This document shows positions 14,220-36,818 of a DNA stretch of 38,566 nucleotides, one piece after another. The stretch's first letter is position 1, and each line of letters opens with the position of its first letter. The DNA lies in the IMG/VR virus record IMGVR_UViG_3300027833_000109, positions 1 through 38,566 of that record; one strand, 5' to 3'. The DNA comes from a virus. A model generated the notes under the pieces. It saw only the letters and a list, made by a program, of their open reading frames with translations. It had not been told where the DNA came from and made no database searches. Both the position numbers and the translations under genes were made by a program.

Positions 14220-14240
14220 TATTAGCTACGCTAATATAAT
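14220..14240 (+). promoter_or_regulatory. promoter/operator of the tail-fibre cassette (17-bp palindrome + TATAAT)
   Basis: A perfect 7-bp inverted repeat, TATTAGC-TAC-GCTAATA (14220-14236), overlaps a consensus -10 box TATAAT at 14235-14240, 23 bases before the next ATG. There is no good -35 hexamer. Four - strand gene starts carry the same palindrome in the same orientation or a close variant, so this is probably an operator-controlled promoter that starts the fibre genes separately from the lysis cassette. Confidence 0.65.
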
Positions 14241-14263
14241 CAACAAACCTATAGGTAGACTAA

Positions 14264-14638
14264 ATGGCGTATTTACAGACATTAAAATTAGTTACAGGCG
14301 ACACGCTACCAGAGCTGACTTTCACGTTGAGAGACAGCCAAACCGCCGCGTCAGGCAAAACGCTCGATAGCAACGACAGTACAACCTGGGCTCCTATCGA
14401 TGTTACAGGTGCCTCAGTCAAGTTACGGCTCAGAGAATTAGGTAGCACTACTGTGAAATCTACACTTACGTGCACTGTATCTGATGGCATAAATGGCAAA
14501 GTTATTACTGATTTCCCAGCTGGCACTTTAGACACCGCTGGAACGTTCGAGGGTGAACTGGAGATCACTTTTTCAAGCGGCGGCATTCAGACCGTGTATG
14601 ACCTGATCAAGTTCAAAGTACGGAGCGACTTTGACTGA
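14264..14638 (+). CDS. baseplate/tail protein with BppU-N-like domain
   Basis: A 124-residue all-beta protein. The pattern VTGDTLPELTFTLRDSQ, then DVTGASVKLRLRELGSTTVK, AGTLDTAGTFEGELEITFSS and TVYDLIKFKVR is that of the immunoglobulin-like N-terminal domain of baseplate upper proteins (BppU_N) and related phage tail proteins. In this position it probably anchors or decorates the fibre assembly. It is the first gene after the palindromic promoter and is followed by a TGATG overlap with the next gene. Confidence 0.65.
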   Translation: MAYLQTLKLVTGDTLPELTFTLRDSQTAASGKTLDSNDSTTWAPIDVTGASVKLRLRELGSTTVKSTLTCTVSDGINGKVITDFPAGTLDTAGTFEGELEITFSSGGIQTVYDLIKFKVRSDFD

Positions 14639-15477
14639 TGGCGGACAAGGTCGACATTACGTTTCTGGAGCCTAGCGCCGACGTTTCTGTCGTACAGATC
14701 GAAGCGGAAACAGCATACCAGCTTGTAAACGGGTCGATCACTTGGGTAGAAGCGCAAGCTACAGAAGTTGTTTTAGACCCTGACACGAAGAACAGATACT
14801 TCCGTGATGAGGCTTTCTCTCTTTCTGAGCAGGCGTCACTGCACCCTCAAAAGGTGACACTAGATTCATTTGGGTTTAGCGATCAGCAGATATTTGATGT
14901 CACGAAAGGCATAGCGGATCAGCTTTCGTTTAGCGAAGTAGTAGACATTTTGCTGATTATTGAACGGGATTTCTCGGATGCATACACGTTAGCAGACGTA
15001 AGTGTGCTGGCCGTTGATAAAGGCGTAGCAGAGACGTTGTCGTTCAGTGAAGTAACGGCGTTTGCGCTCGATGTAGCCAAGGCCGACTCAGTTTCTATTT
15101 TGGAATCCGCCGCTCTGGCACTGAGCAAACCAGCGGCTGATAGCTTATCGATGAACGATACGTTTAGTCGGGTAGCTACCTTTAGCAGAGCGTTCACAGA
15201 TGCATTCACGCTTGGTGATGCAGCGACTGTCGATGCGTTTACTAAAGACACCAGCGCCGCCAAGACGAACGTATTTGGCTTTACGGATACACAGACATTC
15301 GCAGTCGAAAAGCCGTTTGCTGACAGTACCTCGCTTACTGACAGTTTTTCATTTTCGGTCGATTTACCTGCGAGTGACTTAGTAACGTTGTCAGATAACG
15401 TTGTAATTAATTTAATTAGCTCAAACTCAGCCGTGCTGAACAGCTCGGCACTTAACACTTTCACACTTAACTCTTAG
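14638..15477 (+). CDS. repeat-containing tail-fibre protein
   Basis: A 279-residue protein starting in a TGATG overlap with the preceding gene. After a 60-residue head it consists of about ten degenerate repeats of 20-25 residues with the core ADxLSFSDxxxxxxxK, for example GIADQLSFSEVVDILL, GVAETLSFSEVTAFALD and PFADSTSLTDSFSFSVDL. This looks like a repetitive beta-structured fibre shaft. It ends with SSALNTFTLNS. Similar repeat proteins occur beside phage tail fibres. No enzymatic residues are apparent, and the exact place in the virion is unknown. Confidence 0.6.
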   Translation: MADKVDITFLEPSADVSVVQIEAETAYQLVNGSITWVEAQATEVVLDPDTKNRYFRDEAFSLSEQASLHPQKVTLDSFGFSDQQIFDVTKGIADQLSFSEVVDILLIIERDFSDAYTLADVSVLAVDKGVAETLSFSEVTAFALDVAKADSVSILESAALALSKPAADSLSMNDTFSRVATFSRAFTDAFTLGDAATVDAFTKDTSAAKTNVFGFTDTQTFAVEKPFADSTSLTDSFSFSVDLPASDLVTLSDNVVINLISSNSAVLNSSALNTFTLNS

Positions 15478-15488
15478 AGGTTTTTGAC

Positions 15489-15914
15489 ATGTTCAACTCA
15501 GGATTCAAATTAGTCGGCCACGTTAGTGTCGCTATTAACGATGAAGTGGTTCAAGAAATCCCGAACCTCGTCGTCACCACAGGAAAAAACTACGTTGCAT
15601 CTCGGATGAAAGACACCACCGAAGGCGCAATGAGTCACATGGCTGTTGGTACGGGCTCTACCGCCGCTGCAGCTGGCGACTCTGCTCTTGGTTCTGAAGC
15701 AGCTCGAGTTGCGTTGACTAGCACTACTGTCAACAACAACGAAATTACTTATGTAGCTACTTACCCATCAGGAACTGGGACAGGTGCTTTGACTGAAGCT
15801 GGAATATTAAACGCTTCGTCGAGCGGCACTATGTTGTGCCGTACCGTGTTCAGCGTGGTTAACAAAGGCGCATCTGATGCGATGACCATTACCTGGACTA
15901 TTACCGCTTCCTAA
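15489..15914 (+). CDS. conserved tail-fibre-associated protein
   Basis: A 141-residue beta-rich protein with an AGAGG-type ribosome site just upstream. The order VPNLVV-like EIPNLVVTTGKNYVASRMKD, MSHMAVGTGSTAAAAGDSAL, ALTEAGILNASSSGTMLCRT and DAMTITWTITAS matches a small domain found alone or within fibre proteins of many phages. It probably trims or caps the fibre shaft. No catalytic motif is visible. It lies between the repeat protein and the large S74 fibre in the same transcript. Confidence 0.65.
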   Translation: MFNSGFKLVGHVSVAINDEVVQEIPNLVVTTGKNYVASRMKDTTEGAMSHMAVGTGSTAAAAGDSALGSEAARVALTSTTVNNNEITYVATYPSGTGTGALTEAGILNASSSGTMLCRTVFSVVNKGASDAMTITWTITAS

Positions 15915-15926
15915 GAGAGGTTTTAG

Positions 15927-17597
15927 ATGTCCGTTAAGTTTTCGAACAACGCCAAGACGACGTTGTCGTCGGCTGTCACCAGCTCCGCTACATCAATTAC
16001 GGTAGCGGACGGCTCTGTATTCCCGTCTATTTCTGGCAGTGAATACTTTTACGTAACACTGGAAGATGCTAGTCAAAATATAGAGATCATAAAAGTTACG
16101 GCGGTAAGTTCTAACACGCTGACTGTCACTCGCGGTCAAGAAAGCACGACTGCCAGGGCATTTGCGTCTGGCGATAAAGCAGAAAATCGCCTAACAGCCG
16201 GTGGACTCAACGATGTTGCGACGCAAGCTGATACGGACACAGATACGACCTATACCGCAGGTTCTGGTCTGTCGCTAACAGGCACTGAGTTTGCAAACAC
16301 AGCACCTGACCAAACTGTCGCACTAACAGGTGCAGGTACTACCACAATTACAGGTACATACCCTAACTTCACAATTACAGGTGCTGGCACTACTTACACC
16401 GCTGGCACTGGCATAACGCTGACAGGTACAGAGTTTCAGCTAACTGACACTAATGCAAAGTTAAACGCCTCTGCTTACACAGCGGCAGACGTTTTAACAA
16501 AGATTAAAACAGTAGATGGTACAGGCTCTGGGTTAGATGCAGATACTATTGATGGTTTAGAACCCAGTGCTTTATCTGTGAGTGAGTCAGATAGAGTAAC
16601 TGGAAGTTCTTTTGCAACAACAGGTTCACCCAGTAGTGTTTTAGAGTATCAACAAGCGGATTCGCAGTCAGACACGAAACTAGCACCTAATACTGACTGG
16701 CATAACACAATAAGAATGGGTCACGGCAACCCATATAGTTACTACAGTAACACCCTCGCTATGCGTATGACTGGTAGTGGCGCAGGTTCTATATTTACTC
16801 AGTTAATCTCTAATAATACCGCACAGGGTTGGAGACAAGTTTGGGATTCGGGAAACGATGGCTCTGGCTCTGGGTTAGATGCAGACACTGTTGATGGTGT
16901 TCACGAGGCTACGTTCATGCGCAGGAGTGCTAACTCTCAGCTAGACATGAACAACAACGACATCGTTGGTGTTGATCAGATTTTCCACGAAGGTGACGCA
17001 GATACCTACATGCAGTTTCACGCGGATAATCAGTGGCGTGTAGTTACTGGTGGATCAGAGCGTTTAGAAGTTAATAACACTGCTGTTACAATTGCTGGAA
17101 CGCTTAATGTTCGTACAGCTATTGATCTTGCAGATAATGATATTCTACGCTTTGGAAGTGCAGATGATGTAGAGTTTTTCTTTAACGGTAGTCACTTTTA
17201 CTTAGATTTAAATTCAGGAGGTAATAACTTTTATATTCGTGATGGGACTACAATTCGCTATACGTTTAATGACAACGGATCATTCACAGCGACAGGTAAC
17301 GTCACTGCTTATTCTGACAGACGATTGAAGGATGATATCCAACCAATCGAAGGTGCATTAGAGAAAGTAGGCACACTTAGTGGTAACACTTATCAGCGTA
17401 ATGACCTACTCGACAAAGACCCTGAGAGACGCTACGCAGGTGTCATTGCTCAAGAGGTTGAGGTTGTGCTACCTGAAGCTGTCTCTGAGGCAGAGGACGG
17501 TACTAAGACCGTAGATTACAACGCAGTAATTGCCTTGCTAGTGGAGTCCATCAAAGAACTCAAGGCAGAGGTTGAAGAACTGAAGGGCAACGCTTAA
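15927..17597 (+). CDS. tail fibre with C-terminal S74 intramolecular chaperone
   Basis: A 556-residue fibre. The N-terminal 80 residues form a beta domain with VTAVSSNTLTVTRGQESTTA, which is common at fibre bases. The middle has repeated TAGTGITLTGTEF-like and GSGLDADTxDG motifs. The C-terminal 100 residues are a Peptidase_S74 domain: AYSDRRLKDDIQPIEGALEK with the catalytic Ser463-Lys468 pair, then YAGVIAQEVEVVLPEAV and a final helix SIKELKAEVEELKG. S74 domains trimerise the fibre and then cut themselves off. The protein is therefore probably a trimeric receptor-binding fibre or its distal part. Its stop overlaps the next start by one base. Confidence 0.85.
   Translation: MSVKFSNNAKTTLSSAVTSSATSITVADGSVFPSISGSEYFYVTLEDASQNIEIIKVTAVSSNTLTVTRGQESTTARAFASGDKAENRLTAGGLNDVATQADTDTDTTYTAGSGLSLTGTEFANTAPDQTVALTGAGTTTITGTYPNFTITGAGTTYTAGTGITLTGTEFQLTDTNAKLNASAYTAADVLTKIKTVDGTGSGLDADTIDGLEPSALSVSESDRVTGSSFATTGSPSSVLEYQQADSQSDTKLAPNTDWHNTIRMGHGNPYSYYSNTLAMRMTGSGAGSIFTQLISNNTAQGWRQVWDSGNDGSGSGLDADTVDGVHEATFMRRSANSQLDMNNNDIVGVDQIFHEGDADTYMQFHADNQWRVVTGGSERLEVNNTAVTIAGTLNVRTAIDLADNDILRFGSADDVEFFFNGSHFYLDLNSGGNNFYIRDGTTIRYTFNDNGSFTATGNVTAYSDRRLKDDIQPIEGALEKVGTLSGNTYQRNDLLDKDPERRYAGVIAQEVEVVLPEAVSEAEDGTKTVDYNAVIALLVESIKELKAEVEELKGNA
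16524..16898 (+). repeat. 33-bp direct repeat inside the fibre gene
   Basis: Copies at 16524-16556 and 16866-16898 match at 31 of 33 bases and both encode GSGLDADT(I/V)DG. They could recombine and exchange or delete the 340 bases between them, changing the fibre's middle. The repeat may simply reflect a structural motif of the shaft. Confidence 0.6.
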
Positions 17598-18187
17598 TGA
17601 CTCTGGCAACGTCAGGATCAATCTCAATCGGAGGCACAACTGCTAACAGGTCTATCAACTTAGAACTGGGCAGAAGTGCAACGGCAACGTCCTCGCTGGG
17701 CGAATCTGCATTACGCGCTCTGGCTAACGACACCTCTGGTGCTATTAGTATGAGTACGTTCCGTGGCAAGTCTGCCGCACTAGACACGCAAACAGTGACT
17801 GTCGGTTTTCGGGCTGCACAGCTATATGTTAATTCTGGTTACGGCTCATTTACGTCAGGGTTAGGTACAACTGGCAATAGAGATATCGGCAGTATGTCTG
17901 ACGGCACATTTAACCCTAAAAGCAATATGTATATTAGGGGACTCTGGTACAGCATACCAACCTCTGGCACTGGTTCGGTAGTTTTCTCATTGAGAAGTTT
18001 AACTACTACGGTTGCTAACAGCGGCTGGACAACTATGAATGTTGCTGGCGTAAACTTTACTCGATCTAGTGCAACTTTTTCCAACATTGATAACGCAAGT
18101 ATTGGGGCGACATCTTGGAGTTGGACAACATCGAGCAACCCGTTTGGTACGACAGTGAATGCAACGAAAGTGGTGACCTTCACATGA
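17597..18187 (+). CDS. tail-fibre-associated protein
   Basis: A 196-residue beta-rich protein. The first 60 residues (SGSISIGGTTANRSINLELG, LGESALRALANDTSGAISMS, TFRGKS) form a domain found at the N-terminus of many phage tail proteins, including the hallmark ending (S/F)xxFxGKS. The remaining 130 residues are Ser/Thr/Gly-rich strands typical of a host-binding domain. The start overlaps the S74 fibre stop and the stop overlaps the next start (ATGA). A role at the fibre tip is inferred. Confidence 0.6.
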   Translation: MTLATSGSISIGGTTANRSINLELGRSATATSSLGESALRALANDTSGAISMSTFRGKSAALDTQTVTVGFRAAQLYVNSGYGSFTSGLGTTGNRDIGSMSDGTFNPKSNMYIRGLWYSIPTSGTGSVVFSLRSLTTTVANSGWTTMNVAGVNFTRSSATFSNIDNASIGATSWSWTTSSNPFGTTVNATKVVTFT

Positions 18188-18975
18188 ACAGAGAATACGT
18201 TGATAAAACAGACCTTGAAGATTCAGCGGTTACGCATGCCGCTTTAACTAGAGGTAGCACATATATTGAAGTGCCGAAGGGTTCAAGCAGTGAAGAAGAA
18301 ATACAGCTTCTGCTTGACAATGCTCTTTTGCAAGCCGCTTTAGACAACTTTCACGGATCGCAAAGCAGGGATGATGTTTATTGCGACAAGGTTATTGTGC
18401 GGCAGGATTATTCTACGGGACTACCCGAAGCACAGGCGTTAATACAAGAGTTGCAAGCTGTATTCCCTGACTACGAAGATTGGGACAGACACAACCATAA
18501 CATTGTAGGCCGCTATACCGCATACAGAGAGCCATATTCTAACTCTGGTATTAGCTTTTATAACTTTGGTGAAAAGCCTTCTGAGTCTTTGTTGCTAAGT
18601 TTTAACACCTCTTACCTTAATAGCAATCTGCTTGAATGGTACGGGTTAAAGTTTGACTTAGACAGTGAGCAGGTAATGTTGAAAGTGGTGTTTCGTAACT
18701 ACGAAGGGGAAACTCCAGAGCTACCTACTAACCCTCGAAACTTCTATGCCGCCATCCACAACCAAGATGGCACAGAAAGCGAATGGGTAGATTTCTACGC
18801 ATGCGCAACGCCTAAATTAATCAGAGAGTTTTGCGCTGAAAAAGGATTGTCGTATCCATTACCCGCAACCACGCACACAGACTGTGACGTTGTATGGTGC
18901 TGGGGCTTTGTGTTTAACAAAAACACTTTGGAGTACGGCCCAGTGAAGGCATACGCTCGATACAACATAACCTAA
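18184..18975 (+). CDS. tail-region protein, unrecognised
   Basis: A 263-residue protein. The start at 18184, which forms an ATGA overlap with the upstream stop, is preferred over an earlier in-frame ATG inside the previous gene. The protein is acidic, with many Tyr, Asn and Asp residues. It includes the ordered segments KVIVRQDYSTGLPEAQALIQ and HNHNIVGRYTAYREPYSNSG, and two Cys near the end (HTDCDVVWCWGFVF). The composition suggests a folded beta-rich virion or adhesin accessory protein. No family was recognised. Its place in the fibre operon is the only functional clue. Confidence 0.6.
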   Translation: MNREYVDKTDLEDSAVTHAALTRGSTYIEVPKGSSSEEEIQLLLDNALLQAALDNFHGSQSRDDVYCDKVIVRQDYSTGLPEAQALIQELQAVFPDYEDWDRHNHNIVGRYTAYREPYSNSGISFYNFGEKPSESLLLSFNTSYLNSNLLEWYGLKFDLDSEQVMLKVVFRNYEGETPELPTNPRNFYAAIHNQDGTESEWVDFYACATPKLIREFCAEKGLSYPLPATTHTDCDVVWCWGFVFNKNTLEYGPVKAYARYNIT

Positions 18976-18985
18976 AGAGGTTACG

Positions 18986-20695
18986 ATGGTTTATTTTAAA
19001 AGAGGCAGGTTTTCGGGCATTGCTCCAGCAATTACGCCGCGTTTGCTCGGCGAACAATTTGGGCAGATAGCGACCAACATTGATTTTGAGTCTGGGCGGT
19101 TAGTTGCGACTAACAAAGACAGTGACACTTATACTCTACAAAACAGCACGCGCCGTTCTATTTATTTTTACCGCGACACGCAGTGGCTTGAATGGCCAAA
19201 CGAACACATATCTGTAGTACCTGGGCCTATACCTGGTGACACTACTGACCGCCTGTACTTTACTGGCGATGACTACCCGCGAGTCGGCACTTACAGCACG
19301 TTAGTGTCTGGCTCTAGCGGATACCCTGTTAACTCGTACCGGTTAGGAGTTCCAGCACCTAGCAATGGGCCTACTGCAACTAAAAGCGGGACCGCAGAAG
19401 ATGGCGCGACACCTAACACTGTGTCGTATGTTTATACGCTTGTTACATCAATGGGAGAAGAAGGCCCTCCAAGTAACCCGTCAGGGAATATGGCCGTTTC
19501 AGCGGGAGAAAGCGTTGCACTTGGATTACCAGCTGGCGACTTGCCAAGTGGGAACTATAACTTTGGCTCTGGAGCAGTAAAAAGAATCTATAGAAGTAAC
19601 ACAGGTTCCACCACGACTGCCTATCAATTCTTAGCGGAGATTGCTTACAGCGCAACAACTTACACCGATACAACGGATGCCGCTTTTCTAGCTGAAATAC
19701 TCCCGTCTTCAACTTGGATTGGCCCACCAAATGATAACAGTAATTTGTATCCGGATGGCCCGCTGCAAGGTTTAATTCCGCTTGCGCAAGGTGTTATGGC
19801 TGGATTTACAGGTAAACGGTTTTGTTTGAGCGAACCGTTTCTCCCGCATGCTTGGCCTATCCAATATCGGATCACCACTGAAGAAGACATTGTAGCTATC
19901 GCTTCTACAACGAATGGGGTAGTGGCTTTAACTGATGGGCAACCATATTTTATTACTGGTACTGACCCGTCAGCTATGACTGCGATGCGTGTTGATTTTG
20001 CTCAGGCTTGTATCAACCGGCGCAGTGTAGTGGATATGGGGGACTACGTTATCTACGCAGGTCCTGATGGCCTTTGCGCGGTGCAAAACACCTCCGGTTC
20101 TATCCTCACAAAGTCTCAGATATCTGTTAAACAGTGGAACGCAGATTTTAACCCTACTACTTATCGCGCTTTTCGGCATGAAGGTACATATGTTGCATTT
20201 TACAGCAACGGCGCAGGAGGATTCGTGTACGACCCGCGCGGAGAAGGTGATGCGATTTCAACACTAACGGTTGACGCAAATGTGCGAGGTGGCTATCGCA
20301 ATCCGAAAGACGGGCAGCTCTACGTTATTGTTGGGAACAAGATTAAAAAGTACCAAGGCGGAACGGCATTCAACACTCTGACTTTTAAAACTAAAAAGTT
20401 TGTAACTCCTACGCCCGTATCAATGGGGTGGGTCTCAGTACATGCAGATGTATACCCAGTGACTATAAAAGTATACGGCGATGGTGCACTTGTTGCTCAT
20501 TATGTACTTAGTAAATCAGGAGCAACATATACCCAGGCTACTACTGTACCTAGTGGCATTAGTAACGGGACATTGCGTGAGCCAGTTATGCGGATGCCAG
20601 CGATTGTTGCGCAAGAGTGGGAAATCCAAGTAGAGGGGACTGACATCAATGAGTTCTGTTTAGCTCAGGGTATTGATGAGGTGCGCCAATCATGA
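18986..20695 (+). CDS. large tail structural protein, possibly nozzle-like
   Basis: A 569-residue beta-rich protein preceded by AGAGGTTACG-ATG. Its opening (FSGIAPAITPRLLGEQFGQI then ATNIDFESGRLVATN) is the pattern of phage proteins that begin by listing pairing strands of a tail-tube or nozzle, such as T7 gp12-type proteins. The body has many Gly/Asp-rich strand repeats (FYSNGAGGFVYDPRGEGD; DGQLYVIVGNKIKKYQGG) compatible with a beta-propeller. T7 gp12 is longer (about 790 residues), so nozzle identity is tentative. A host-recognition beta protein is the alternative. Confidence 0.55.
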   Translation: MVYFKRGRFSGIAPAITPRLLGEQFGQIATNIDFESGRLVATNKDSDTYTLQNSTRRSIYFYRDTQWLEWPNEHISVVPGPIPGDTTDRLYFTGDDYPRVGTYSTLVSGSSGYPVNSYRLGVPAPSNGPTATKSGTAEDGATPNTVSYVYTLVTSMGEEGPPSNPSGNMAVSAGESVALGLPAGDLPSGNYNFGSGAVKRIYRSNTGSTTTAYQFLAEIAYSATTYTDTTDAAFLAEILPSSTWIGPPNDNSNLYPDGPLQGLIPLAQGVMAGFTGKRFCLSEPFLPHAWPIQYRITTEEDIVAIASTTNGVVALTDGQPYFITGTDPSAMTAMRVDFAQACINRRSVVDMGDYVIYAGPDGLCAVQNTSGSILTKSQISVKQWNADFNPTTYRAFRHEGTYVAFYSNGAGGFVYDPRGEGDAISTLTVDANVRGGYRNPKDGQLYVIVGNKIKKYQGGTAFNTLTFKTKKFVTPTPVSMGWVSVHADVYPVTIKVYGDGALVAHYVLSKSGATYTQATTVPSGISNGTLREPVMRMPAIVAQEWEIQVEGTDINEFCLAQGIDEVRQS

Positions 20696-23811: not shown

Positions 23812-23812
23812 T

Positions 23813-24798: not shown

Positions 24799-25800
24799 AT
24801 GGCTACAATCCGCAAACGTGGGGGAAAGATTCAAGTGCAGATTAGACGCTTGAACTTCCCAACACAGTCAAAATCTTTTACATCTACCGCAGCAGCGAAA
24901 GCCTGGGCGCGACGCATAGAGACGAGCATGGACGACGGTTCGTGGATCGATACTCGCGAAACGCGGTCCGTGCTCATTAACGGTATTGTTGAGCAGCTTA
25001 TCCTCAGCTATGAGCGTTTTAATCTGCCTGTTGCTGGGCCAAAGCTGTCTTCACTAAAGCAGATAGAAGATCATTTCCAAGGCGTATCGATACATGATCT
25101 AACGGTAGAAGATGTCTTATTATTCGCAGCGGCACGACGTTCAAAAGTGAGCGCGAGCACGCTACAGAAACAGATGTATTATTTTAGGCAAGCTGTAAAT
25201 AACTCACGTATTAAAGCACGAGAAGACGTAGTGCAGATTGCTATAGATGAGCTAATCAAGAAGAAAATTATTCTTAGTAGCGTCTGGCGAGACCGGCGAC
25301 TGGAACCTGGTGAATATGATCGTCTTATGGACGCGGCGGGAGATCACTGGGTGGGGCACGCTATCGATATAGCATTAGAGTCTGGCATGCGACAAGGTGA
25401 AATACATGCCTTAAAGATGTCGGATATTGATTTTGATAAGGGTGTGATAAAGATTTTACGGAAGGACCCGAGAGCTGAAGGTGGCAAGAAACTGTGCAAA
25501 GTACCCCTTTTAAAGGGCGTGAGAGAGGCGGTTCTACGTACACAGAATGTAGTTGGCAGGAGCGATACCTTGTTTACTGTGAAGCACAGCGCTTCGATTT
25601 CCGACAAGTTTGCCCGTTTGACTACTAAACTGGGAATAAAAGATTTAACTTTTCATGACTTGCGTCATGAAGCTATATCGAGGATGTTTGAGCGGGGAAT
25701 GACGGTCGAGCAAGTGCGCGCGGTAAGCGGCCACACAAGCCTCGACCAATTGTCTCGTTACATAAACCTCAAGCCTGAAGATATTGCTGCTAAGTATTAA
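24799..25800 (+). CDS. int: tyrosine-family phage integrase
   Basis: A 333-residue site-specific recombinase that would insert the phage at the tRNA-like core and, with an excisionase, remove it. Residues 1-45 look like an AP2-like arm-binding domain (ATIRKRGGKIQVQIRRLNFP). Residues 60-150 are the core-binding helices. The catalytic domain has R198 in ALESGMRQGEIHALK, H286 and R289 in FHDLRHEA, H312 in VSGHTS and nucleophile Y321 in LSRYINL. AGGAGAG lies 5 bases before the ATG. The 3' end overlaps the convergent excisionase gene by 11 bases, so the two transcripts are antisense at their ends. All key residues are present, so it is probably active. Confidence 0.93.
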   Translation: MATIRKRGGKIQVQIRRLNFPTQSKSFTSTAAAKAWARRIETSMDDGSWIDTRETRSVLINGIVEQLILSYERFNLPVAGPKLSSLKQIEDHFQGVSIHDLTVEDVLLFAAARRSKVSASTLQKQMYYFRQAVNNSRIKAREDVVQIAIDELIKKKIILSSVWRDRRLEPGEYDRLMDAAGDHWVGHAIDIALESGMRQGEIHALKMSDIDFDKGVIKILRKDPRAEGGKKLCKVPLLKGVREAVLRTQNVVGRSDTLFTVKHSASISDKFARLTTKLGIKDLTFHDLRHEAISRMFERGMTVEQVRAVSGHTSLDQLSRYINLKPEDIAAKY

Positions 25801-25996
25801 GGTTGTCAGTTAAATACTTTGATACTTCGTGTGTGGGGAAAAGATATTTTTTGCCCCGCTTTACATGACTAATGTCGAGTTGGCCCTTGTATATTTGTTG
25901 ATATAGCGATTCTTTTTTAAGTCTAAATAATCCTGCTAATTCTGTTAGGTCCATAAATGGTCCGTATTTGTCGCTTAGTATAGTCTGCATTTCCAT
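25790..25996 (-). CDS. xis: excisionase/AlpA-like helix-turn-helix protein
   Basis: A 68-residue protein with a single MerR/HTH_17-type DNA-binding fold: FMDLTELAGLFRLKKESLYQ, then a wing and VKRGKKYLFPTHEVSKYL. Proteins of this size and fold next to a tyrosine integrase usually bend DNA for excision, or act as AlpA-type activators. Its C-terminus overlaps the 3' end of int on the opposite strand. The 135 bases upstream hold palindromic TATTAGT/ACTAATA elements with a TATA-like -10, so its expression is probably regulated by the nearby repressor. Excisionase versus activator cannot be settled from sequence. Confidence 0.75.
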   Translation of the reverse strand: MEMQTILSDKYGPFMDLTELAGLFRLKKESLYQQIYKGQLDISHVKRGKKYLFPTHEVSKYLTDNLNT

Positions 25997-26013
25997 GAAA
26001 GAGGGCCTTTATA

Positions 26014-26040
26014 TATTAGTTACGTCATTAATTACTAATA
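26014..26040 (-). promoter_or_regulatory. inverted TATTAGT half-sites upstream of the excisionase
   Basis: TATTAGT (26014-26020) and ACTAATA (26034-26040) form an inverted repeat with 13 bases between arms, 18-44 bases before the excisionase start. On the - strand the near arm is followed by TATATAAAG, a -10-like sequence. The half-site is one base from the TATTAGC of the dispersed 17-bp palindrome, so the same protein may bind here. Confidence 0.45.
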
Positions 26041-26101
26041 TTCATACTAACAAAAAGGTGAGCAATAATAAACATAATTAATGTGATTTCGTATAGCGCT
26101 A

Positions 26102-26129
26102 ACGTACTAATACTTTAGTATTAGTACGT
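26102..26129. promoter_or_regulatory. perfect 12-bp palindrome after the repressor gene
   Basis: ACGTACTAATAC-TTTA-GTATTAGTACGT is a perfect inverted repeat starting 3 bases after the repressor stop. It lacks a T-run on either strand, so it is a poor intrinsic terminator. It contains two outward-facing TATTAGT half-sites, suggesting an operator in the repressor-excisionase interval. An mRNA 3'-end hairpin is the alternative. Confidence 0.5.
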
Positions 26130-26131
26130 AG

Positions 26132-26704
26132 TTATACGCAGAAAAATGAGACTACTGCCCACTTTTTGTTGATAGCTGTATCAGCCGGTAAGTCAGATTT
26201 GTGGTAGAAGCGGAGTTGCTTTTCTTTCTTTAATCTTACTGCATAAATTTTAGCTGCTGGGTATTTTGCTACTGTGCAAATTTGCGCAATGTTATCCATA
26301 CCTGGTGCGCCAATAACTAAACCTGCACTTGAGTTTTCAATGCAAGCATTTTTGCTCAGCCTGACATAAGAAGACACAGCATTCTTTCTAGTGTATACAC
26401 CGTCTTTTAAAGGTTTTGTCATGTCGTCAGATTTAAACGTTAGATTAAGTCTTTGGACATAAGGTAACTTGTCTTCAATATCAGGGTCTATTTCTGTAGG
26501 GTCTACGTCGAGAAAATTAGCGAACTTAATAATAGCTGGAGCGCCAAGCTCTGTAATGTGACTCAAATAATGGCTGATAGCGCCTTGAGACCAGTTTAAC
26601 TCTTTAGCGGCCTGTACTTGAGTGAATTGCATTTCTTGTTGCTTTTGATGCCAAATTTTACGTAGGTTATGTACTGATTGTGGTATTTGTTTTGAGTCTT
26701 TCAT
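26132..26704 (-). CDS. XRE-family repressor candidate
   Basis: A 190-residue protein. Residues 11-70 form an XRE helix-turn-helix (HNLRKIWHQKQQEMQFTQVQ then AAKELNWSQGAISHYLSHIT; recognition helix about 39-47). The C-terminal 100 residues (NACIENSSAGLVIGAPG, AKIYAVRLKKEKQLRFYHKS, WAVVSFFCV) are compatible with a divergent S24/LexA-like dimerisation domain, but I see no clear Ser-Lys protease pair. It is the likely lysogeny regulator: it lies beside int and xis and is the only XRE protein in the window. XRE dimers often bind 17-bp palindromes like those scattered in this genome. It overlaps the next upstream gene by 38 bases. Confidence 0.75.
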   Translation of the reverse strand: MKDSKQIPQSVHNLRKIWHQKQQEMQFTQVQAAKELNWSQGAISHYLSHITELGAPAIIKFANFLDVDPTEIDPDIEDKLPYVQRLNLTFKSDDMTKPLKDGVYTRKNAVSSYVRLSKNACIENSSAGLVIGAPGMDNIAQICTVAKYPAAKIYAVRLKKEKQLRFYHKSDLPADTAINKKWAVVSFFCV

Positions 26705-27098: not shown

Positions 27099-27146
27099 AA
27101 AAATAAGTGATCCGTTATGACCAACGGTGGATCAATCCGTCATGGA

Positions 27147-27168
27147 CTGCACTGGCCCCCCAGTGCAG
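27147..27168 (-). promoter_or_regulatory. stable hairpin between the SSB-like and nuclease genes
   Basis: CTGCACTGG-GGGG-CCAGTGCAG (read on the - strand) is a perfect 9-bp stem with a 4-base loop, 17 bases after the SSB-like stop. No T-run follows, so it might act as an RNA-stability or Rho-assisted element. A second imperfect GATCC-containing repeat lies between it and the nuclease start. Confidence 0.45.
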
Positions 27169-27874: not shown

Positions 27875-27899
27875 ATGATTTTCTCTTCATGATTCATGT

Positions 27900-28265: not shown

Positions 28266-28277
28266 TGGTTTTTTCTC

Positions 28278-29618: not shown

Positions 29619-29641
29619 AGGTCATCACTCATTGATGGTTT

Positions 29642-29662
29642 AGTATATTAGCATAGCTAATA
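29642..29662 (-). promoter_or_regulatory. palindromic promoter/operator of the helicase operon
   Basis: A perfect TATTAGC-ATA-GCTAATA (29646-29662) with, on the - strand, TATACT at 29647-29642 reading into the helicase gene. The palindrome-to--10 geometry is the same as at 14220-14240, 32335-32355 and 34802-34822. No good -35 hexamer is present. Confidence 0.65.
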
Positions 29663-29669
29663 TTATGGT

Positions 29670-29843: not shown

Positions 29844-29844
29844 G

Positions 29845-29861
29845 TATTAGCCTTACTAATA
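29845..29861 (-). promoter_or_regulatory. palindrome variant before the zinc-ribbon gene
   Basis: TATTAGC-CTT-ACTAATA has one mismatch to the dispersed 17-bp palindrome and ends one base from the zinc-ribbon ATG. Binding here would block ribosome or polymerase entry. No adjoining -10 element is clear, so it may be an operator without a promoter. Confidence 0.5.
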
Positions 29862-30772: not shown

Positions 30773-30941
30773 CTTTTGTCTCCAATTCATGTACCCCGTC
30801 GCAGAGATCCAGTGCTTTGTTGATTGCGGTTAATGCTTCGACCTCACGGCCTGACGCTAACATGGTGTGCATGAATTCAATCTGGAACCTAATACGTTGG
30901 CCATAGGTTCGTGATTCGTGGCTCGCGCTTATTTCTTTCAT
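30762..30941 (-). CDS. 59-residue helical hypothetical protein
   Basis: A small frame MKEISASHESRTYGQRIRFQ then IEFMHTMLASGREVEALTAI, NKALDLCDGVHELETKDDL. Its ATG overlaps the stop of the upstream membrane protein (ATGA), and it is likely all helical. No family was recognised. The translational overlap and non-random composition support it. Position within a string of tiny early genes suggests a host-modulating function, which is inference. Confidence 0.6.
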   Translation of the reverse strand: MKEISASHESRTYGQRIRFQIEFMHTMLASGREVEALTAINKALDLCDGVHELETKDDL

Positions 30942-31231
30942 GATGGGTCTACCTCTACCCACCGCAGAGCGCGATAGGGGAATGTTTTGGTTTTGACTAG
31001 CATGAGTTCTTCGCGAGTCATGGTGCGTTTCATTACAAGCAATGTGACTGATACGACAAGACCGCCGACCATTGCTGCCATCATGCCGCCAAATGTCCCT
31101 GCGAACAGGAACATGAGGAGGCCGGTGCAAGCGATATCAAGAGGGATATCGAATGCAATAGCTCGACGTACGCCGAACTTAAATATCAGGAACAGGAGAC
31201 CCGCTGCTGAAAGTAGACCTGCTGTAATCAT
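30938..31231 (-). CDS. 97-residue membrane protein, unrecognised
   Basis: AGGAG lies 7 bases before the ATG. Three hydrophobic segments are visible: about 3-18 (TAGLLSAAGLLFLIFKFG), 31-47 (IACTGLLMFLFAGTFGG) and 50-66 (MAAMVGGLVVSVTLLVM), followed by a charged cytoplasmic tail (KRTMTREELMLVKTKTFPYR). It sits in an early-type - strand cluster, far from the lysis cassette, so it is not an obvious holin. Exclusion of other phages or membrane modification are possible roles. It overlaps the 40-residue frame at its 5' end and the 59-residue gene at its 3' end. Confidence 0.6.
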   Translation of the reverse strand: MITAGLLSAAGLLFLIFKFGVRRAIAFDIPLDIACTGLLMFLFAGTFGGMMAAMVGGLVVSVTLLVMKRTMTREELMLVKTKTFPYRALRWVEVDPS

Positions 31232-31301
31232 ATAAAACTCCTAGTAACGTGATTACGATGAATGCAATTTCAATTGCGTTTAGTACTGCTAGTAAAGTCA
31301 T
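31179..31301 (-). CDS. 40-residue single-span membrane peptide
   Basis: MTLLAVLNAIEIAFIVITLL then GVLYDYSRSTFSSGSPVPDI. The start is in an ATGA overlap with the 50-residue gene. Residues 3-23 form one membrane helix. The last 50 bases overlap the next membrane protein in another frame. Coupling and the clear membrane helix support expression, but the peptide has no recognised family. Confidence 0.45.
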   Translation of the reverse strand: MTLLAVLNAIEIAFIVITLLGVLYDYSRSTFSSGSPVPDI

Positions 31302-31450
31302 TCGTTAGTCCTGAGATGGAAGTACGCAACAGTACATACAACAGCAACTAGTACAAATACGTACAAGCCAATTGCTATCATCTGTGCGAACAAGGTTAAT
31401 AAAGCGGCTACTGCGATTGCGTAACCAAAGCGTATCAATAGTTTTTTCAT
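31298..31450 (-). CDS. 50-residue membrane protein
   Basis: MKKLLIRFGYAIAVAALLTL followed by FAQMIAIGLYVFVLVAVVCT and VAYFHLRTNE. Two hydrophobic segments (about 9-25 and 26-44) follow a short basic start, so the protein is probably a small inner-membrane protein with a hairpin topology. An earlier in-frame start would run through the terminator, so the ATG at 31450 is used. It heads the cluster of small genes after the terminator. Unknown function. Confidence 0.55.
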   Translation of the reverse strand: MKKLLIRFGYAIAVAALLTLFAQMIAIGLYVFVLVAVVCTVAYFHLRTNE

Positions 31451-31501
31451 AGGGATTCTCTGTTCATGATTCGTGAGGATCAGTTGAATTCCGATCGGGA
31501 A

Positions 31502-31524
31502 TAAAAAAGCCCACCGAAGTGGGC
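31502..31524 (-). terminator. Rho-independent terminator after the Cas4-like nuclease gene
   Basis: On the - strand GCCCAC-TTCG-GTGGGC (31524-31509) is followed by TTTTTTA (31508-31502). The stem, UUCG loop and U-run make a classical terminator that separates the polymerase/primase/nuclease unit from the small membrane genes. Confidence 0.93.
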
Positions 31525-31560
31525 AAAGGCTTGCTACTTCTACGGGGGAAACGTAGCTGG

Positions 31561-32310
31561 TTAGCTCACACCCCAGGTGCATTCTGGTTCGTCACCTTTA
31601 CGATGAGGACACCATCTGCAGCTGTCTTTGCTGGGTGTTGGAGCAAATTCTGTTTCAGTTGTCATTTTGACTGCACGTCTGTGGAACCCTGGTGCGAAGA
31701 CCATTGCTTGCTCACGCGTGTAAGTCTTTTTGGTAGTCTCACCTTTATCGAGATACCAGAACTCAACTTGTACAAACTGTAAGTGGGGGTATCTGAAGAA
31801 GGTGCCAATGGCGTAGAGCAGGCCTTGTTGCCCGTGGGATATTTCGTTACCCCACTTTTTGCCTGTCTTGTAGTCAATGACTCTAGCGGATGTATCGTCT
31901 TCTTGGACTAAGGCGTCGAGTTTGATACGCGCCCAGGTTTCTTTTTGCATCCAGCCGACTGTTGCCCAGTCGAGATCGAAACCCCATTCGCCTTCGTTTT
32001 CTACTTTGGCTTGTGCATAGAGTTCACGTAGTTCTTCAAACTCGTCTTTAAACTTGTGTAGCGAATCGTGCATTTCACCGGCGGTGCCATCAACATAGTC
32101 TTCAGCGTATTGGTGGATCTGCGTACCACGATCTGCAGCTGGTCCACTAGGTTCTTTAACGCCTTTGACACGGCTGATATATGTTCGATAAGCGCACTCT
32201 TCATATACTTTAAGTGCTGAGTAACTCCACGCTCTAACATCGCCTAGTGCCTTTGGTTTTTCGAAATCGATTACGTCGTCTGGTCTCGTGTCCTGAGTTA
32301 GCTTGATCAT
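31561..32310 (-). CDS. Cas4/RecB-like PD-(D/E)XK exonuclease with likely Fe-S cluster
   Basis: A 249-residue nuclease. Core motifs: H66 in RGTQIHQYAEDYV, D132 in RIKLDALVQED, D146 and K148 in ARVIDYKTGKK, and HGQQGLLYA. Cys39 near the N-terminus together with Cys231, Cys234 and Cys244 near the end form the four-cysteine pattern of the 4Fe-4S nucleases Cas4 and AddB. Phages use such enzymes for recombination, resection or packaging-associated cleavage. The gene is the last of its transcript, ended by a strong terminator. It has no CRISPR array or Cas1 beside it, so it is not part of a CRISPR system. Confidence 0.85.
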   Translation of the reverse strand: MIKLTQDTRPDDVIDFEKPKALGDVRAWSYSALKVYEECAYRTYISRVKGVKEPSGPAADRGTQIHQYAEDYVDGTAGEMHDSLHKFKDEFEELRELYAQAKVENEGEWGFDLDWATVGWMQKETWARIKLDALVQEDDTSARVIDYKTGKKWGNEISHGQQGLLYAIGTFFRYPHLQFVQVEFWYLDKGETTKKTYTREQAMVFAPGFHRRAVKMTTETEFAPTPSKDSCRWCPHRKGDEPECTWGVS

Positions 32311-32334
32311 AAAACTTTCCTAGATATAGTCTTT

Positions 32335-32355
32335 ACTATATTAGTATAGCTAATA
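32335..32355 (-). promoter_or_regulatory. palindromic promoter/operator of the Cas4-like nuclease gene
   Basis: TATTAGT-ATA-GCTAATA (32339-32355) has one mismatch to the dispersed palindrome. On the - strand it abuts TATAGT (32340-32335), 25 bases before the ATG at 32310, the same layout as at the helicase and primase genes. Confidence 0.6.
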
Positions 32356-32358
32356 ACA

Positions 32359-34782
32359 TTACCTAACAGCAAGTAACTTGCGATCCTTGTCGTCGAAGTA
32401 CTTGTTAGTGACTTCGTTAAATTGTTCTGTATCTAGTTTCCATTCAATAACTACCCCTCGAACTACGTTCGTTGATCGTGGCGCATTGTGTTCACGTTTC
32501 CGTTCTTTTGTTACGCCGCATCGAGCTGCTTTCTTTTGGAATTCGCGTTGAGACAAGCGGTCATCAGTTAGTACGCCATACACAACACGTAGATGTTCTA
32601 GCGGTACTACTGAATGAGGCCACTGAGACTCTGCTACCCACTGTTTAACAAAGCGTTGTGCGGTGGTGATTTCTTGTCCCTGTAATACGTTAGTTAAGCT
32701 TATGTCTAGTATGTCCATGAAGAACGAAAGGTTGCCATGACGTACGGCTGCGAAGAACTCTTCCATAACCGACATGGTTACTTGAGCCATCTGTGCTTTA
32801 GCGTTGTTAGCAATAGGTGTACGTACTAGCTGCTTGTTTACTTTGTAGTTGCGAAGTAATGCAGCGAACTTATGTAGCTCAGCGCTTATGTCATCGATGC
32901 CATCGATAACTTCTGGATATACATGCTCGAGCTTCTGCTCTTGGCGAGGTGCGATGTTGTATCGGCGGTCGCCTTCTTCAATCTTTACTGCATCCATTCG
33001 GTTAGTCAGGAAGATGAAGTTTGTGTAGTTAGGCATCTCAACTTGGTTAGAACGCATTGCACGGATAGTCATTGTGTTTTCTGTAATAGCGTTCTTGAGT
33101 TTGTCCGCAATCTTCATGGTGCCTGAGTTAGCTGACGCCATGTGGAACTCGTCAACTACTAAGAACAGTGCTTGTCGCATGTACAAGTTGAACTGCTCTT
33201 CGATGTTCTGTAATGCTCGCATTGGTACGTGCCAGGCGGTCATTGCTTTACGCTTAGTCTGGAAAATATATGCCAGCCAGTTGGTAAAGTGCTCAACCTC
33301 GAGGCTCTGTCCTCCCAAGATGTGAGTCATCAACTTGTAGATCAGTGGGCAAGAGTCTGCGATCTTAGCTGCGTCACCCATGCTGAGTGGTTCGTGCTCA
33401 CGTTTAGATAGCATGTATTCCGTCTTGCGGAACATGTTGATGTGGTACGGCACGTTTGCCAGGTTAACTGCAGCGTCGTCTGACGCTGGGTCAAAGACGA
33501 CTCTTGCATCAGGTATGTAGTCAGGCTTGCTTCGACCATGAGATCTCATGAATCCTTCGATGCTAGCTGATGAGCAAGGCATCAATGGGAACTCGTCGCT
33601 GAACTGATTAAGGTTGGGATCGAATACGCCGTTGTAGTATGTGTCTGTATAAAAGTCGCGCATTGCTACTGGGAAGTTAGCGCGGCCTTCTTTTTCCATT
33701 TCTTCTTGATACACATCAAATAGCGACTTGTAGAAGTCGGGGTCTGCTTGCTCGATTGACCAGATAGGTTCGCCTTTGAAGTTGAACATGTACGTGGGAT
33801 CTTCGAGCTTAAAGTAATACGCGTTGCTGTCGCCACCATTGACGTTACACCGTATGTACGGAGGGTTTGTATCGTCAGTGATGTGAATCGACATGCGGTC
33901 TGGATTAGTTAGAATCTCTTCCGACTTATTGTCGACGGTGGCAATGGTTAGGCGTTCTTTCTTTGCTTTGAACCCACGTTGAGTACGCAGTTTATTTTTG
34001 TGCTCGTTGCTTTTCTGATGCACAACTTCTGGGCTGATGTCACCCATGAGTTTTGCGAGGTCAAGCGTCTCCGTAATACCGGAAACACGCACGACCCGCT
34101 CGGAGGAGGTAGCGAACGGGTCGTGGGTTCCGTCTTCAAAGGTAGGAGGGGCAATGAAGATCAGTTTTGAGTTATCAGCTACGCTGGTATCTAACGGGTA
34201 CTTTAGTGAGTGCCCGTTACTAGATAGTTCTAGCTGTGACGAGAACAGCTGCGACTCAAAGTTGCAGTTCTGGAGCCACAGCTTTACTGCTTTGGCAGGC
34301 ATAGCGTGTGTTAACAGAATAAATATATGTAGCGATACTTTGTCACCTTTTAGCCCAAGACTAGAAGACGCTTGTGCTATGAAGCTGCAGTCTTGTACCT
34401 CTGCTGGTAGCTCGCGCATAACAGCTTTTGCTAGCGTACTGACATCTTTGTCAGTAAATGTTTTAGGGTTGGTGTGACTAGGTATCGTAATGCCGTCAAT
34501 ATCAAGTACGAGTAGATTAGAGTAACCGATACGATCGGTTTTGCCTGCTCGTGACTCGTTTTGTATTGGACGTTTAAGATTACCTTTAAGCAGGCAGTGA
34601 CCTTGTTTTCCGTGTTCACGAATGAGCTGCTCAAGTACTGACAAGCCAGCTGTATCTATTGGCAAGTCATGTTCGTGCGATGAGACGCTTTTAACGTGTG
34701 GGTATGGGGTAAAGCCCGTTTTTGGGCAGTGACGTTTGCTTAACCGCTGTCCATTAGCGGCTTCCAAAAAAGTAAGTTGCAT
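32359..34782 (-). CDS. primase-helicase (AEP + D5/SF3-like) lacking its Walker A loop
   Basis: An 807-residue replication protein. Residues about 80-260 look like an AEP-type primase (SNLLVLDIDG with metal-binding acidic residues; KVSLHIFILL). Residues 430-660 are a D5/SF3-like helicase: VEHFTNWLAYIFQTKRKAM, Walker B ALFLVVDEFHM (D544, E545), sensor FIFLTNRMDA and a GDRRYNIAP arginine region. Between TAW517-HV and PMRALQNIEEQ the expected GxxGxGK(G/S/T) Walker A segment of roughly 25-30 residues is absent; only 27 residues separate W517 from Walker B. The one GKT (RAGKTDR, near residue 80) is not in a P-loop setting. Without Walker A the helicase should not bind ATP. AGGAGGAG precedes the ATG, and a palindromic promoter lies upstream. 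Confidence 0.8.
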   Translation of the reverse strand: MQLTFLEAANGQRLSKRHCPKTGFTPYPHVKSVSSHEHDLPIDTAGLSVLEQLIREHGKQGHCLLKGNLKRPIQNESRAGKTDRIGYSNLLVLDIDGITIPSHTNPKTFTDKDVSTLAKAVMRELPAEVQDCSFIAQASSSLGLKGDKVSLHIFILLTHAMPAKAVKLWLQNCNFESQLFSSQLELSSNGHSLKYPLDTSVADNSKLIFIAPPTFEDGTHDPFATSSERVVRVSGITETLDLAKLMGDISPEVVHQKSNEHKNKLRTQRGFKAKKERLTIATVDNKSEEILTNPDRMSIHITDDTNPPYIRCNVNGGDSNAYYFKLEDPTYMFNFKGEPIWSIEQADPDFYKSLFDVYQEEMEKEGRANFPVAMRDFYTDTYYNGVFDPNLNQFSDEFPLMPCSSASIEGFMRSHGRSKPDYIPDARVVFDPASDDAAVNLANVPYHINMFRKTEYMLSKREHEPLSMGDAAKIADSCPLIYKLMTHILGGQSLEVEHFTNWLAYIFQTKRKAMTAWHVPMRALQNIEEQFNLYMRQALFLVVDEFHMASANSGTMKIADKLKNAITENTMTIRAMRSNQVEMPNYTNFIFLTNRMDAVKIEEGDRRYNIAPRQEQKLEHVYPEVIDGIDDISAELHKFAALLRNYKVNKQLVRTPIANNAKAQMAQVTMSVMEEFFAAVRHGNLSFFMDILDISLTNVLQGQEITTAQRFVKQWVAESQWPHSVVPLEHLRVVYGVLTDDRLSQREFQKKAARCGVTKERKREHNAPRSTNVVRGVVIEWKLDTEQFNEVTNKYFDDKDRKLLAVR

Positions 34783-34801
34783 GGCTCCTCCTACAGAGCA
34801 A

Positions 34802-34822
34802 AGTATATTAGCATAGCTAATA
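34802..34822 (-). promoter_or_regulatory. palindromic promoter/operator of the primase-helicase gene
   Basis: A perfect TATTAGC-ATA-GCTAATA (34806-34822) abuts, on the - strand, TATACT (34807-34802), 20 bases before the primase ATG. It lies 2 bases after the csrA stop, so the primase can be transcribed separately from the polymerase-csrA unit. Confidence 0.65.
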
Positions 34823-34823
34823 A

Positions 34824-35012
34824 TTATTTAGTAGGATTTGCGTTTTTGTCGAATACTTCCTGTCGATCAATCCGGATCTTGTTATCCGCTTCGAATGTTA
34901 AGCGGACTTGATTCCTGTCAACTTTTGAGACTGTTACTCTCGCCAGAACGCCGTTGTCATCGTGGATGACAACCTTCTCCATAAGTTTCCTTGTCAGTAC
35001 TAATCGTGGCAT
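34824..35012 (-). CDS. csrA: CsrA homologue, RNA-binding post-transcriptional regulator
   Basis: A 62-residue protein of the usual CsrA length and pattern: MPRLVLTRKLMEKVVIHDDN, then VTVSKVDRNQVRLTFEADNK and IRIDRQEVFDK. The beta-1 LTRK (Leu6, Arg8), the conserved NQVRLxFEA strand and Arg50 in the RIDRQEV strand correspond to the RNA-binding edge of CsrA dimers. CsrA blocks or stabilises mRNAs by binding GGA in hairpin loops, often at ribosome sites. The gene follows the DNA polymerase gene by 3 bases with only a weak ribosome site, so it may be translationally coupled. It could redirect host carbon metabolism or time phage translation. Targets are unknown. Confidence 0.88.
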   Translation of the reverse strand: MPRLVLTRKLMEKVVIHDDNGVLARVTVSKVDRNQVRLTFEADNKIRIDRQEVFDKNANPTK

Positions 35013-35015
35013 AAG

Positions 35016-36818
35016 TCACTTGCTGTAGCTAACGTCGTAGCCCCCTTCGGCATCTAGGGGGATGTCTTTCGCCCAATCAGGTGGTTTGCACATGTGGGTG
35101 ATAAGTTTGTCCATTGTAGCATCAGGATTATTAGCTTGGCTAATTAAAACGATTTCATCGTGGACAGTGAGCACAACTTCTGCATCGAGGTTGGTGTCTT
35201 GTTCGATACGAAGCATTGAATCAGTAACAATGATTCGTGATAACGCTTGTACTACGTTTTCTGCAATGCGTCCGCCCCAAGTAGACTCAGTAACACGAGA
35301 GTCGTACGTGAGCTTGCCGCGTTCAAAGCGCAGGTTGTTGTAGTGCAGAGCCATACCGTTAGGTAGATGTATTTTACCTTGGTGAAAACGAAGGCCGTGC
35401 CAAGTCTCGTCATACGTTGGGTTGATTGAGTTTGCGAGCTTTAGCTCCAACTTTTTCCATAATAAAGGTATACCTGAGTATGTACTGCGGTATGTATTTA
35501 CCACGTTGTAGGCTTCGTCAGTAGTGAATGTCATGGGTGGGCCCATAGCACCAGCTTCTAATGTCGTCTGGAACTTAGTTGCGCCCATGCCGTATCCGAG
35601 ACCGAGCACAGCTGTCTTACCAACGAAACGTTCTGTTGGGTCGTCGTGCTTGTTAATTGGGCGGTCGTAGATTACTGATGCAAGGTTGCTGTAGATGTCG
35701 TCGCCGTTGCGGAATTGCTGCAGCAGATCGTCTTCGTCTGCAAGCCACGCGAGCATACGGGCTTCGATGTTTGATAAGTCGGCAACGAATACGAGCTGTC
35801 CAGGCGGTGCGCACAACGCTTTGCGCAGCTCAGAGTTGCGCGGCATGTTTTGCATATTAATTTTTTCAGTACCGCCGAACCGGCCGGTATGTGCTGCGTA
35901 ATAACGAAGCGGCACGCTGATGGTCCCGTCGTCATGTGTTGCATCAATGAAGCGTTGTGCCCTGGTCTCCGCGATGCGACTCTTTACTGCTTTACGTGCA
36001 TCCCATACATGCTGAAACTGGGGGTACATGTTCTGCATTTGTTGGTAAGCTTTGTCACTCTTACCCAATGCAGGGATGTCTTTGCCTGTAGTAGGGCTGA
36101 CCTTGGTCGGCGGTACTAGGCCCATACTATATATGTGTTCTGCAAATTGTTGATTGGAGCTTAGTACTTTGCGGCACACGCCTGCTGCATCGATGAGCGC
36201 TTCATTGGCCGCGATTGTTTTATCACGGAACGTGGTTAGTCGTTCGCGGTCTACGATCAGCTTTGGTTCACAGAACATACGACAAGTGATATCTATGATG
36301 TCCATCTCTGATGTTGGCATCTGCTTGACTAGCTGTGTGAATATAGCGTGCGTAAGATCGACATCTTGTATGCAGTAGCCAGCGATCGCTTCTTCGAGTT
36401 CTGGATCGAGGTCGTAAATACCTTTTGCGTCGGCGAGTTCTTCGCCTTTGCGCATTGTTTCGTCATCAGGGAAGCAGCGTACAGCGCAGTCTTTAAGACG
36501 CGCTGACTGCCCTGGGAACAACCCGCGGTTCATTGCAGCAGTATCAACGTAATACTTTGGTATTACACCGTAGTGTCTGGTTAATATATAACCATCGAAT
36601 GGTGTGTTGTGGCAGATTGCCACAGTTTCCGGCCAATTTATGGCTAAAATAGCTGCTTCGGCTTCGTCTTCGCCGTACCATTCAGTCTCTTCATTATCAA
36701 TCTTGATGCCTACACCCCACACTTTGAATTTCTCGTGTCTGACGTAGTCCATGGTGGTTAGTTTAGTGAGTGATACTTTTGTATCGAAGTATGTTTCGAA
36801 GTCGAGAGTTACAAACAT
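35016..36818 (-). CDS. family A DNA polymerase with 3'-5' exonuclease
   Basis: A 600-residue replicative polymerase. Exonuclease: TLDFETYFD (D6, E8), CHNTPFDGY (N71, D75), GYCIQDVDLT (Y148, D152). Polymerase: motif A VFVADLSNIEARMLAWL (D347, E352), motif B RFVGKTAVLGLGYGMG (about 397-412), motif C VVLTVHDEIVL (H553, D554, E555). All catalytic residues are present and the length is normal for phage PolA-type enzymes without a 5' nuclease. Its ATG overlaps the upstream 67-residue gene (TAATG). It ends 3 bases before csrA. A variant of the dispersed palindrome lies inside its 3' part. Confidence 0.93.
   Translation of the reverse strand: MFVTLDFETYFDTKVSLTKLTTMDYVRHEKFKVWGVGIKIDNEETEWYGEDEAEAAILAINWPETVAICHNTPFDGYILTRHYGVIPKYYVDTAAMNRGLFPGQSARLKDCAVRCFPDDETMRKGEELADAKGIYDLDPELEEAIAGYCIQDVDLTHAIFTQLVKQMPTSEMDIIDITCRMFCEPKLIVDRERLTTFRDKTIAANEALIDAAGVCRKVLSSNQQFAEHIYSMGLVPPTKVSPTTGKDIPALGKSDKAYQQMQNMYPQFQHVWDARKAVKSRIAETRAQRFIDATHDDGTISVPLRYYAAHTGRFGGTEKINMQNMPRNSELRKALCAPPGQLVFVADLSNIEARMLAWLADEDDLLQQFRNGDDIYSNLASVIYDRPINKHDDPTERFVGKTAVLGLGYGMGATKFQTTLEAGAMGPPMTFTTDEAYNVVNTYRSTYSGIPLLWKKLELKLANSINPTYDETWHGLRFHQGKIHLPNGMALHYNNLRFERGKLTYDSRVTESTWGGRIAENVVQALSRIIVTDSMLRIEQDTNLDAEVVLTVHDEIVLISQANNPDATMDKLITHMCKPPDWAKDIPLDAEGGYDVSYSK
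35129..35145 (-). promoter_or_regulatory. palindrome variant inside the polymerase gene
   Basis: TATTAGC-TTG-GCTAATT matches the dispersed palindrome at all but the last arm base. It lies within polymerase coding sequence, 117 bases before the csrA start, with no clear -10 next to it. It may be an internal operator or a roadblock site, or a chance match. Confidence 0.35.

Follow-up and report, generated by a model that had tools for sequence, protein, structure and literature searches.

Dispersed palindromes as putative operators of a lambda-CI-like repressor in a temperate podovirus

The virus record IMGVR_UViG_3300027833_000109, a linear 38.6-kb fragment that we analysed over its whole length of 38,566 nucleotides (the window), contains a palindrome, TATTAGC-N3-GCTAATA, that recurs at promoters of its replication and tail genes. 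These palindromes are very probably operators of the phage's own lambda-CI-like XRE repressor, which would silence replication and tail genes in the prophage. We infer the binding, the repression and the part played in lysogeny from the sites, their conservation, their overlap with promoters, their dependence on the XRE gene and the homology of XRE to lambda CI. The structural genes of the window lie on the plus strand and are followed by an integrase gene (24799-25800) and then, on the minus strand, by an excisionase-like gene, the XRE gene and replication genes up to position 38485; judged from its sequence, this XRE- and integrase-bearing virus is a temperate podovirus.

Palindromic sites and the XRE gene

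Allowing up to three mismatches, the palindrome was found 11 times in the window, whereas shuffled sequence gave 1.63 matches on average and 6 at most, and a weight matrix built from relatives only, with the window left out, scored 8 window sites at 16 or above and none in the shuffles. The palindrome is a real feature, much commoner than chance would give, which answers the count against shuffled controls proposed in the initial annotation. The six copies listed there (14220, 29646, 29845, 32339, 34806 and 35129) agreed on re-count in coordinates and in number of mismatches, and to them must be added a seventh place, ahead of the gene at 37208-37528, where two weaker copies adjoin (37553-37569 and 37570-37586). 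The copies had been described as lying at gene starts, which is so for most of them but not for 35129, a site within the polA-like gene and some 110 bp ahead of a CsrA-like gene.

The working form of the motif is a pair of 6-bp half-sites, TATTAG and CTAATA, with 5 bp between them. Among 84 distinct sites the constant part comprises these half-sites (with the variants TAATAG and TAATAC) and the 5-bp spacer, and effectively all have an A at half-site position 2. The halves are non-identical in 35 of the 84 sites, so that hairpin pairing is broken while two valid half-sites are kept, which argues for recognition by a protein and not for a stem as the constraint. The same feature tells against N4-type hairpin promoters, where a virion RNA polymerase would read the extruded 7-bp arms and 3-nt loop. 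Arms and loops of this size do stand at gene starts, and positions 5898-13253 encode a virion protein of 2451 aa, but this protein gave no RNA-polymerase family match. Sites with mixed halves (e.g. TATTAGC..GGTATTA) break the stem while both of their halves stay valid, pairing is often lost at the inner pair 7/11, and the sites are mostly missing in relatives lacking XRE. As the arms are mixed in ways that leave them non-complementary and an RNA polymerase was not found, this explanation has next to no likelihood and was discarded.

With the helicase protein as query, 80 related viral contigs were retrieved, nearly all metagenomic and sharing ancestry. In most of them the palindrome is present upstream of the helicase gene at the same spacing, and it also recurs in relatives upstream of the Cas4, primase, 57-aa open reading frame (ORF) and tail or internal-virion genes and in the gap between XRE and xis. 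Megablast found no match among named phages, tblastn retrieved distant helicase and virion relatives only, and matches in genome collections were confined to doubtful bins of metagenome-assembled genomes and distant prophages. A report of a TATTAG-N5-CTAATA operator was not found in the literature searched.

The comparison set consisted of 85 distinct relatives, 71 with the XRE gene and 14 without. Sites around the helicase gene averaged 2.62 in the former and 0.36 in the latter, with 0.005 expected, and a helicase site with at most one mismatch was present in 60/71 against 3/14 (Fisher p = 8e-6, a value that, like the permutation value given below, overstates independence through the shared ancestry of the relatives). 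The XRE-less relatives are also devoid of integrase and xis, a joint loss that would suit another regulator on the sites, either the excisionase-like helix-turn-helix protein or a host factor. All five XRE-bearing relatives without detected int/xis nevertheless keep the helicase site, and hence XRE and not int/xis is the partner of the sites and int/xis was rejected in that role. Moreover, XRE is a lambda-CI homologue and the same operator stands beside an unrelated CI gene, as described below, and we regard a different regulator as extremely unlikely.

Half-site type is common to unlinked early and late sites of one genome, as in relative L025, where all four sites are of the TAATA type, and L016, where most half-sites are. 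Such coupling within genomes (permutation p = 2e-4, with independence inflated by shared ancestry) is expected if one trans-acting protein reads all sites, and common descent contributes to it. A residue-to-base code for the switch from TATTAG to TAATAG, drawn from the residues past the recognition helix (NNITE versus NNVVP, TGETP or NNQTP), fits L016, L025 and L039 and was abandoned, being contradicted by L046 and L079.

The N-terminal domain of XRE is a CI-like helix-turn-helix domain, as is characteristic of lambda-CI-type phage repressors. It aligns end to end with lambda CI (3kz3, E = 1.7e-8) and matches 1lmb at 1.2 A over 68 residues. Its Q29 and Q40 are invariant in 42 sequences and align with Q33 and Q44 of lambda CI, the residues contacting base pair 2 in the lambda operator. 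The lambda operator ends in TAT/ATA, and it shares with the present sites both these ends and a symmetric 17-bp form. The C-terminal domain did not match the S24 family, and a conserved Ser/Lys dyad was not seen in its alignment; the fold of this domain is beta-rich with no confident structural match. This C-terminal half (26132-26460, minus strand) is strongly divergent between relatives while the DNA-binding half is conserved, as if selected for different partners or inducers. A divergent cro-like gene adjoining XRE was not found in the window.

In L097 and L118, prophages unrelated to these viruses, a lambdoid region carries the exact operator and TATAAT, followed after 27 nt by a CI gene (helix TQGGVSHYMN), and this gene is adjoined by a divergent Cro-like gene with TQGFVSHYL. 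Their cI-cro regions suggest an independent pairing of the operator with a similar recognition helix, to which their CI would bind. In the distant relatives L271 and L272 (helix SQGAISQYLNG), two ATTAG-N5-CTAAT sites precede the helicase gene. The proposal in the initial annotation that a single operator network lets an XRE dimer silence both replication genes and late genes thus gains support from the co-occurrence of XRE and operators, the homology to lambda CI, the coupled variants and the independent CI/operator pair.

Besides shared ancestry, several observations weigh against assigning the sites to XRE. Three XRE-less relatives (L055, L166 and L172) each keep one helicase site, possibly as a relic, and the helicase site is missing in 11 XRE-bearing genomes, most of which have copies elsewhere. 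The late site upstream of the internal-virion-protein gene is absent in some XRE-bearing relatives. Further, no promoter from which XRE would be transcribed in the lysogen was identified, and the gene overlaps the VRR gene.

Promoter geometry and proposed mode of repression

The palindromes had been thought to lack a good -35 box, which does not hold in the wider family, as the helicase, Cas4 and early promoters have one at a spacing of 17-18 bp. The helicase promoter of the window reads TTGAAC (29673-29668), 17 bp and TAATAT (29650-29645), extended by TG at 29653-29652; among 50 distinct relatives TTGA is found at -11 in 35 and the extended -10 TGnTAATAT, 17 bp away, in 44. At the Cas4 promoter the -35-like TTGCTG (32372-32367) lies 18 bp upstream of TATACT, where TATNNT is kept in 35/40 distinct relatives, and the early arrangement TTGAAC-17-TACTAT with its adjoining operator copies is also kept in L016, L030 and L021. 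No clear -35 was found at the late and primase promoters. The -10-like hexamer reported to abut the palindrome is conserved as TATAAT at late sites only (20/25 exact). In the window this hexamer (14235-14240) overlaps the last 2 bp of the late site, whose counterparts in relatives are upstream of f124 and internal-virion-protein genes. In close XRE-bearing relatives the half-sites at 35129 survive where the encoded amino acids differ (ISQAN versus ITGTN); distant XRE-less relatives lack them.

At least four registers relative to the -10 were observed, including a -10 inside the operator (Cas4), an operator just upstream of it (helicase, primase, late) and an operator centred about 19 bp upstream (the polA-internal site). 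The sites thereby cover the -10 or the -35 in several registers, all of them predicted to overlap polymerase contacts, which favours simple occlusion by the repressor over an activator of fixed geometry and over stoperators that block elongation. Activation, in which a phage factor, perhaps XRE itself, would sit on the palindrome and recruit polymerase to promoters without a -35, had been raised as the alternative; it draws on the late and primase promoters, which have no clear -35 and where the palindrome occupies the -35/spacer position. We consider it very unlikely and rejected it, given the variable registers, the -35 boxes at the helicase, Cas4 and early promoters, the extended -10 (TGn) of the helicase and primase promoters and the XRE-less relatives that have the same genes without the sites.

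Under repression by occlusion, the XRE dimer would read two TATTAG half-sites whose centres are about one helical turn apart, and once bound would block host sigma-70 RNA polymerase separately at each promoter. The promoters so blocked would be the early (37553-37586), CsrA/primase (35129 and 34806), Cas4 (32339), 57-aa ORF (29845), helicase (29646), excisionase (26 kb region) and tail cassette (14220) promoters. Replication, excision and late genes would each be silenced directly in the prophage state, and loss of the repressor would release all of them together. The sites and associated features are listed in Table 1, where the one at 13437-13453 may reflect coding constraint alone.

Table 1. 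Putative operators and associated features of the window
Feature	Position	Strand	Remarks
Possible weak operator in late coding sequence (TATTAGCTGTACCAATA)	13437..13453	+	Score 16.7; kept in six relatives
Putative late operator TATTAGC-TAC-GCTAATA	14220..14236	+	Tail/fibre cassette, first gene start 14264
Tyrosine integrase	24799..25800	+	Missing from XRE-less relatives
Excisionase-like HTH_17 gene	25790..25996	-	Most relatives have operator-like sites in the gap to XRE
XRE-xis intergenic region	26002..26129	-	TATTAG/CTAATA half-sites; inverted repeat 26102-26129 directly past XRE stop
XRE/lambda-CI-like repressor gene (190 aa)	26132..26704	-	Proposed operator binder
Covarying H-type pseudoknot, 33 nt	27108..27140	-	Just upstream of the VRR-nuclease gene, which precedes and overlaps XRE
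Putative helicase operator	29646..29662	-	At most one mismatch in 60/71 XRE-bearing relatives
Putative operator filling the gap between GP88-like gene and 57-aa ORF	29845..29861	-	ATG 1 bp downstream; 18 distinct relatives
Putative Cas4-like nuclease gene operator	32339..32355	-	-10 TATACT (32348-32343) inside operator
Putative primase/helicase gene operator	34806..34822	-	Extended -10 TG-C-TAATAT inside and at operator end
Putative operator within end of polA-like gene	35129..35145	-	10 nt upstream of extended -10 TGCTACAAT (35121-35113), ahead of CsrA-like gene
Two adjoining weak putative operators over early promoter	37553..37586	-	TTGAAC (37580-37575), 17 bp, TACTAT (37557-37552); ATG 37528

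Comparison with known repressor systems

The closest working analogue appears to be the C1 repressor of phage P1, in which 22 dispersed operators and one repressor control replication and late functions (PMC8546580). The likeness is one of layout, numerous operators standing singly at different lytic promoters in both. The P1 operator differs in being an asymmetric 17-bp ATTGCTCTAATAAATTT where the present one is the symmetric TATTAG-N5-CTAATA, and P1 late genes run through Lpa whereas here an operator stands directly on the late promoters.

Stoperators had been the analogy of the initial annotation, and in their strict form the repressor at its dispersed sites would mainly stop elongation and not initiation. 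Part of the analogy stands, since repressor sites spread over the genome of a temperate phage, with motif variants differing between genomes, are common to both, and one of the dispersed sites (35129) lies in a coding region. The stoperators of cluster A phages such as L5 are, however, asymmetric, oriented with transcription and mostly off promoters (PMC6550527), and they are 13 bp long and more numerous, at up to about 30. Nearly all the sites described here are symmetric and overlap promoter elements; by this comparison the window sites are not of the cluster A class, P1 C1 is the nearer model and a strict stoperator mechanism is very unlikely.

With lambda CI, XRE shares a homologous N-terminal domain, the same recognition-helix frame and the equivalent glutamines. 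The lambda operators, in contrast, are clustered in two control regions, whereas those considered here are mostly single, at seven or more promoters dispersed over 14-38 kb, and the XRE C-terminal domain is divergent with no S24 peptidase family recognised. The cI-cro regions of L097 and L118 have exactly the same operator and -10 but are organised as compact immunity regions of the classical kind, with cro divergent and without a dispersed network. The window would thus combine a lambda-type DNA-binding domain with a P1-like dispersed layout in which late structural genes are under direct repression.

Wider implications and neighbouring elements

More tentatively, and with rather less than even confidence, we propose that an extensive clade of aquatic podoviruses, most of them uncultured, maintains lysogeny by one lambda-CI-like repressor with a near-universal operator, TATTAG-N5-CTAATA, silencing each lytic operon including the tail; that switches of half-site across whole genomes found new immunity groups; and that the pseudoknot upstream of the nuclease and repressor genes is a new RNA element adding a second layer of control. 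The proposed repressor-operator system would itself provide a testable immunity code for largely uncultured temperate podoviruses, from which regulon and mutual exclusion could be predicted by sequence alone. The code would also predict which phages have turned virulent, as repressor and integrase are lost together with, but for few exceptions, the operators. Ten relatives (L048, L069, L071, L074, L082, L158-L161 and L213) are without XRE, integrase and the helicase-promoter operator, and the relatives lacking XRE and integrase are apparently virulent through natural loss of lysogeny.

The pseudoknot has a first stem of 4-5 bp, a 2-nt loop, a second stem TGATCC/GGATCA or covarying variants of it, and a loop of about 10 nt ending in AAC. 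An alignment of 27 copies has 98% of its pair cells paired, with changes on both sides at 8/11 pairs, and the covariation score is 0.538 as compared to 0.191 for shuffled and at most 0.108 for slid alignments. The exact layout recurs with a sharp optimum of loop length, and Rfam gave no family match. The element is a candidate new regulatory RNA. It is also present, sometimes in tandem, in L043, L168, L040, L324, L372, L381 and others, and near unrelated phage genes (XRE, recombinase-like).

Several further elements were observed on the minus strand. The helicase leader AAACCATCAATGAGTGATG (29619-29645) shows strong conservation that in most relatives extends beyond the operator, and it has no clear Shine-Dalgarno sequence. 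Between polA and primase, a CsrA-like protein of 62 aa (34824-35012) is kept in nearly all relatives, and the polA codons GAT GCT ACA ATG, near-invariant in relatives with and without XRE, look like an extended -10 TGCTACAAT (35113-35121) for this gene within coding sequence. A GC-rich hairpin, CTGCACTGG-GGGG-CCAGTGCAG (27143-27167), lies between the gp34-like and VRR genes, where relatives have other hairpins or an operator instead, and is a possible terminator or attenuator.

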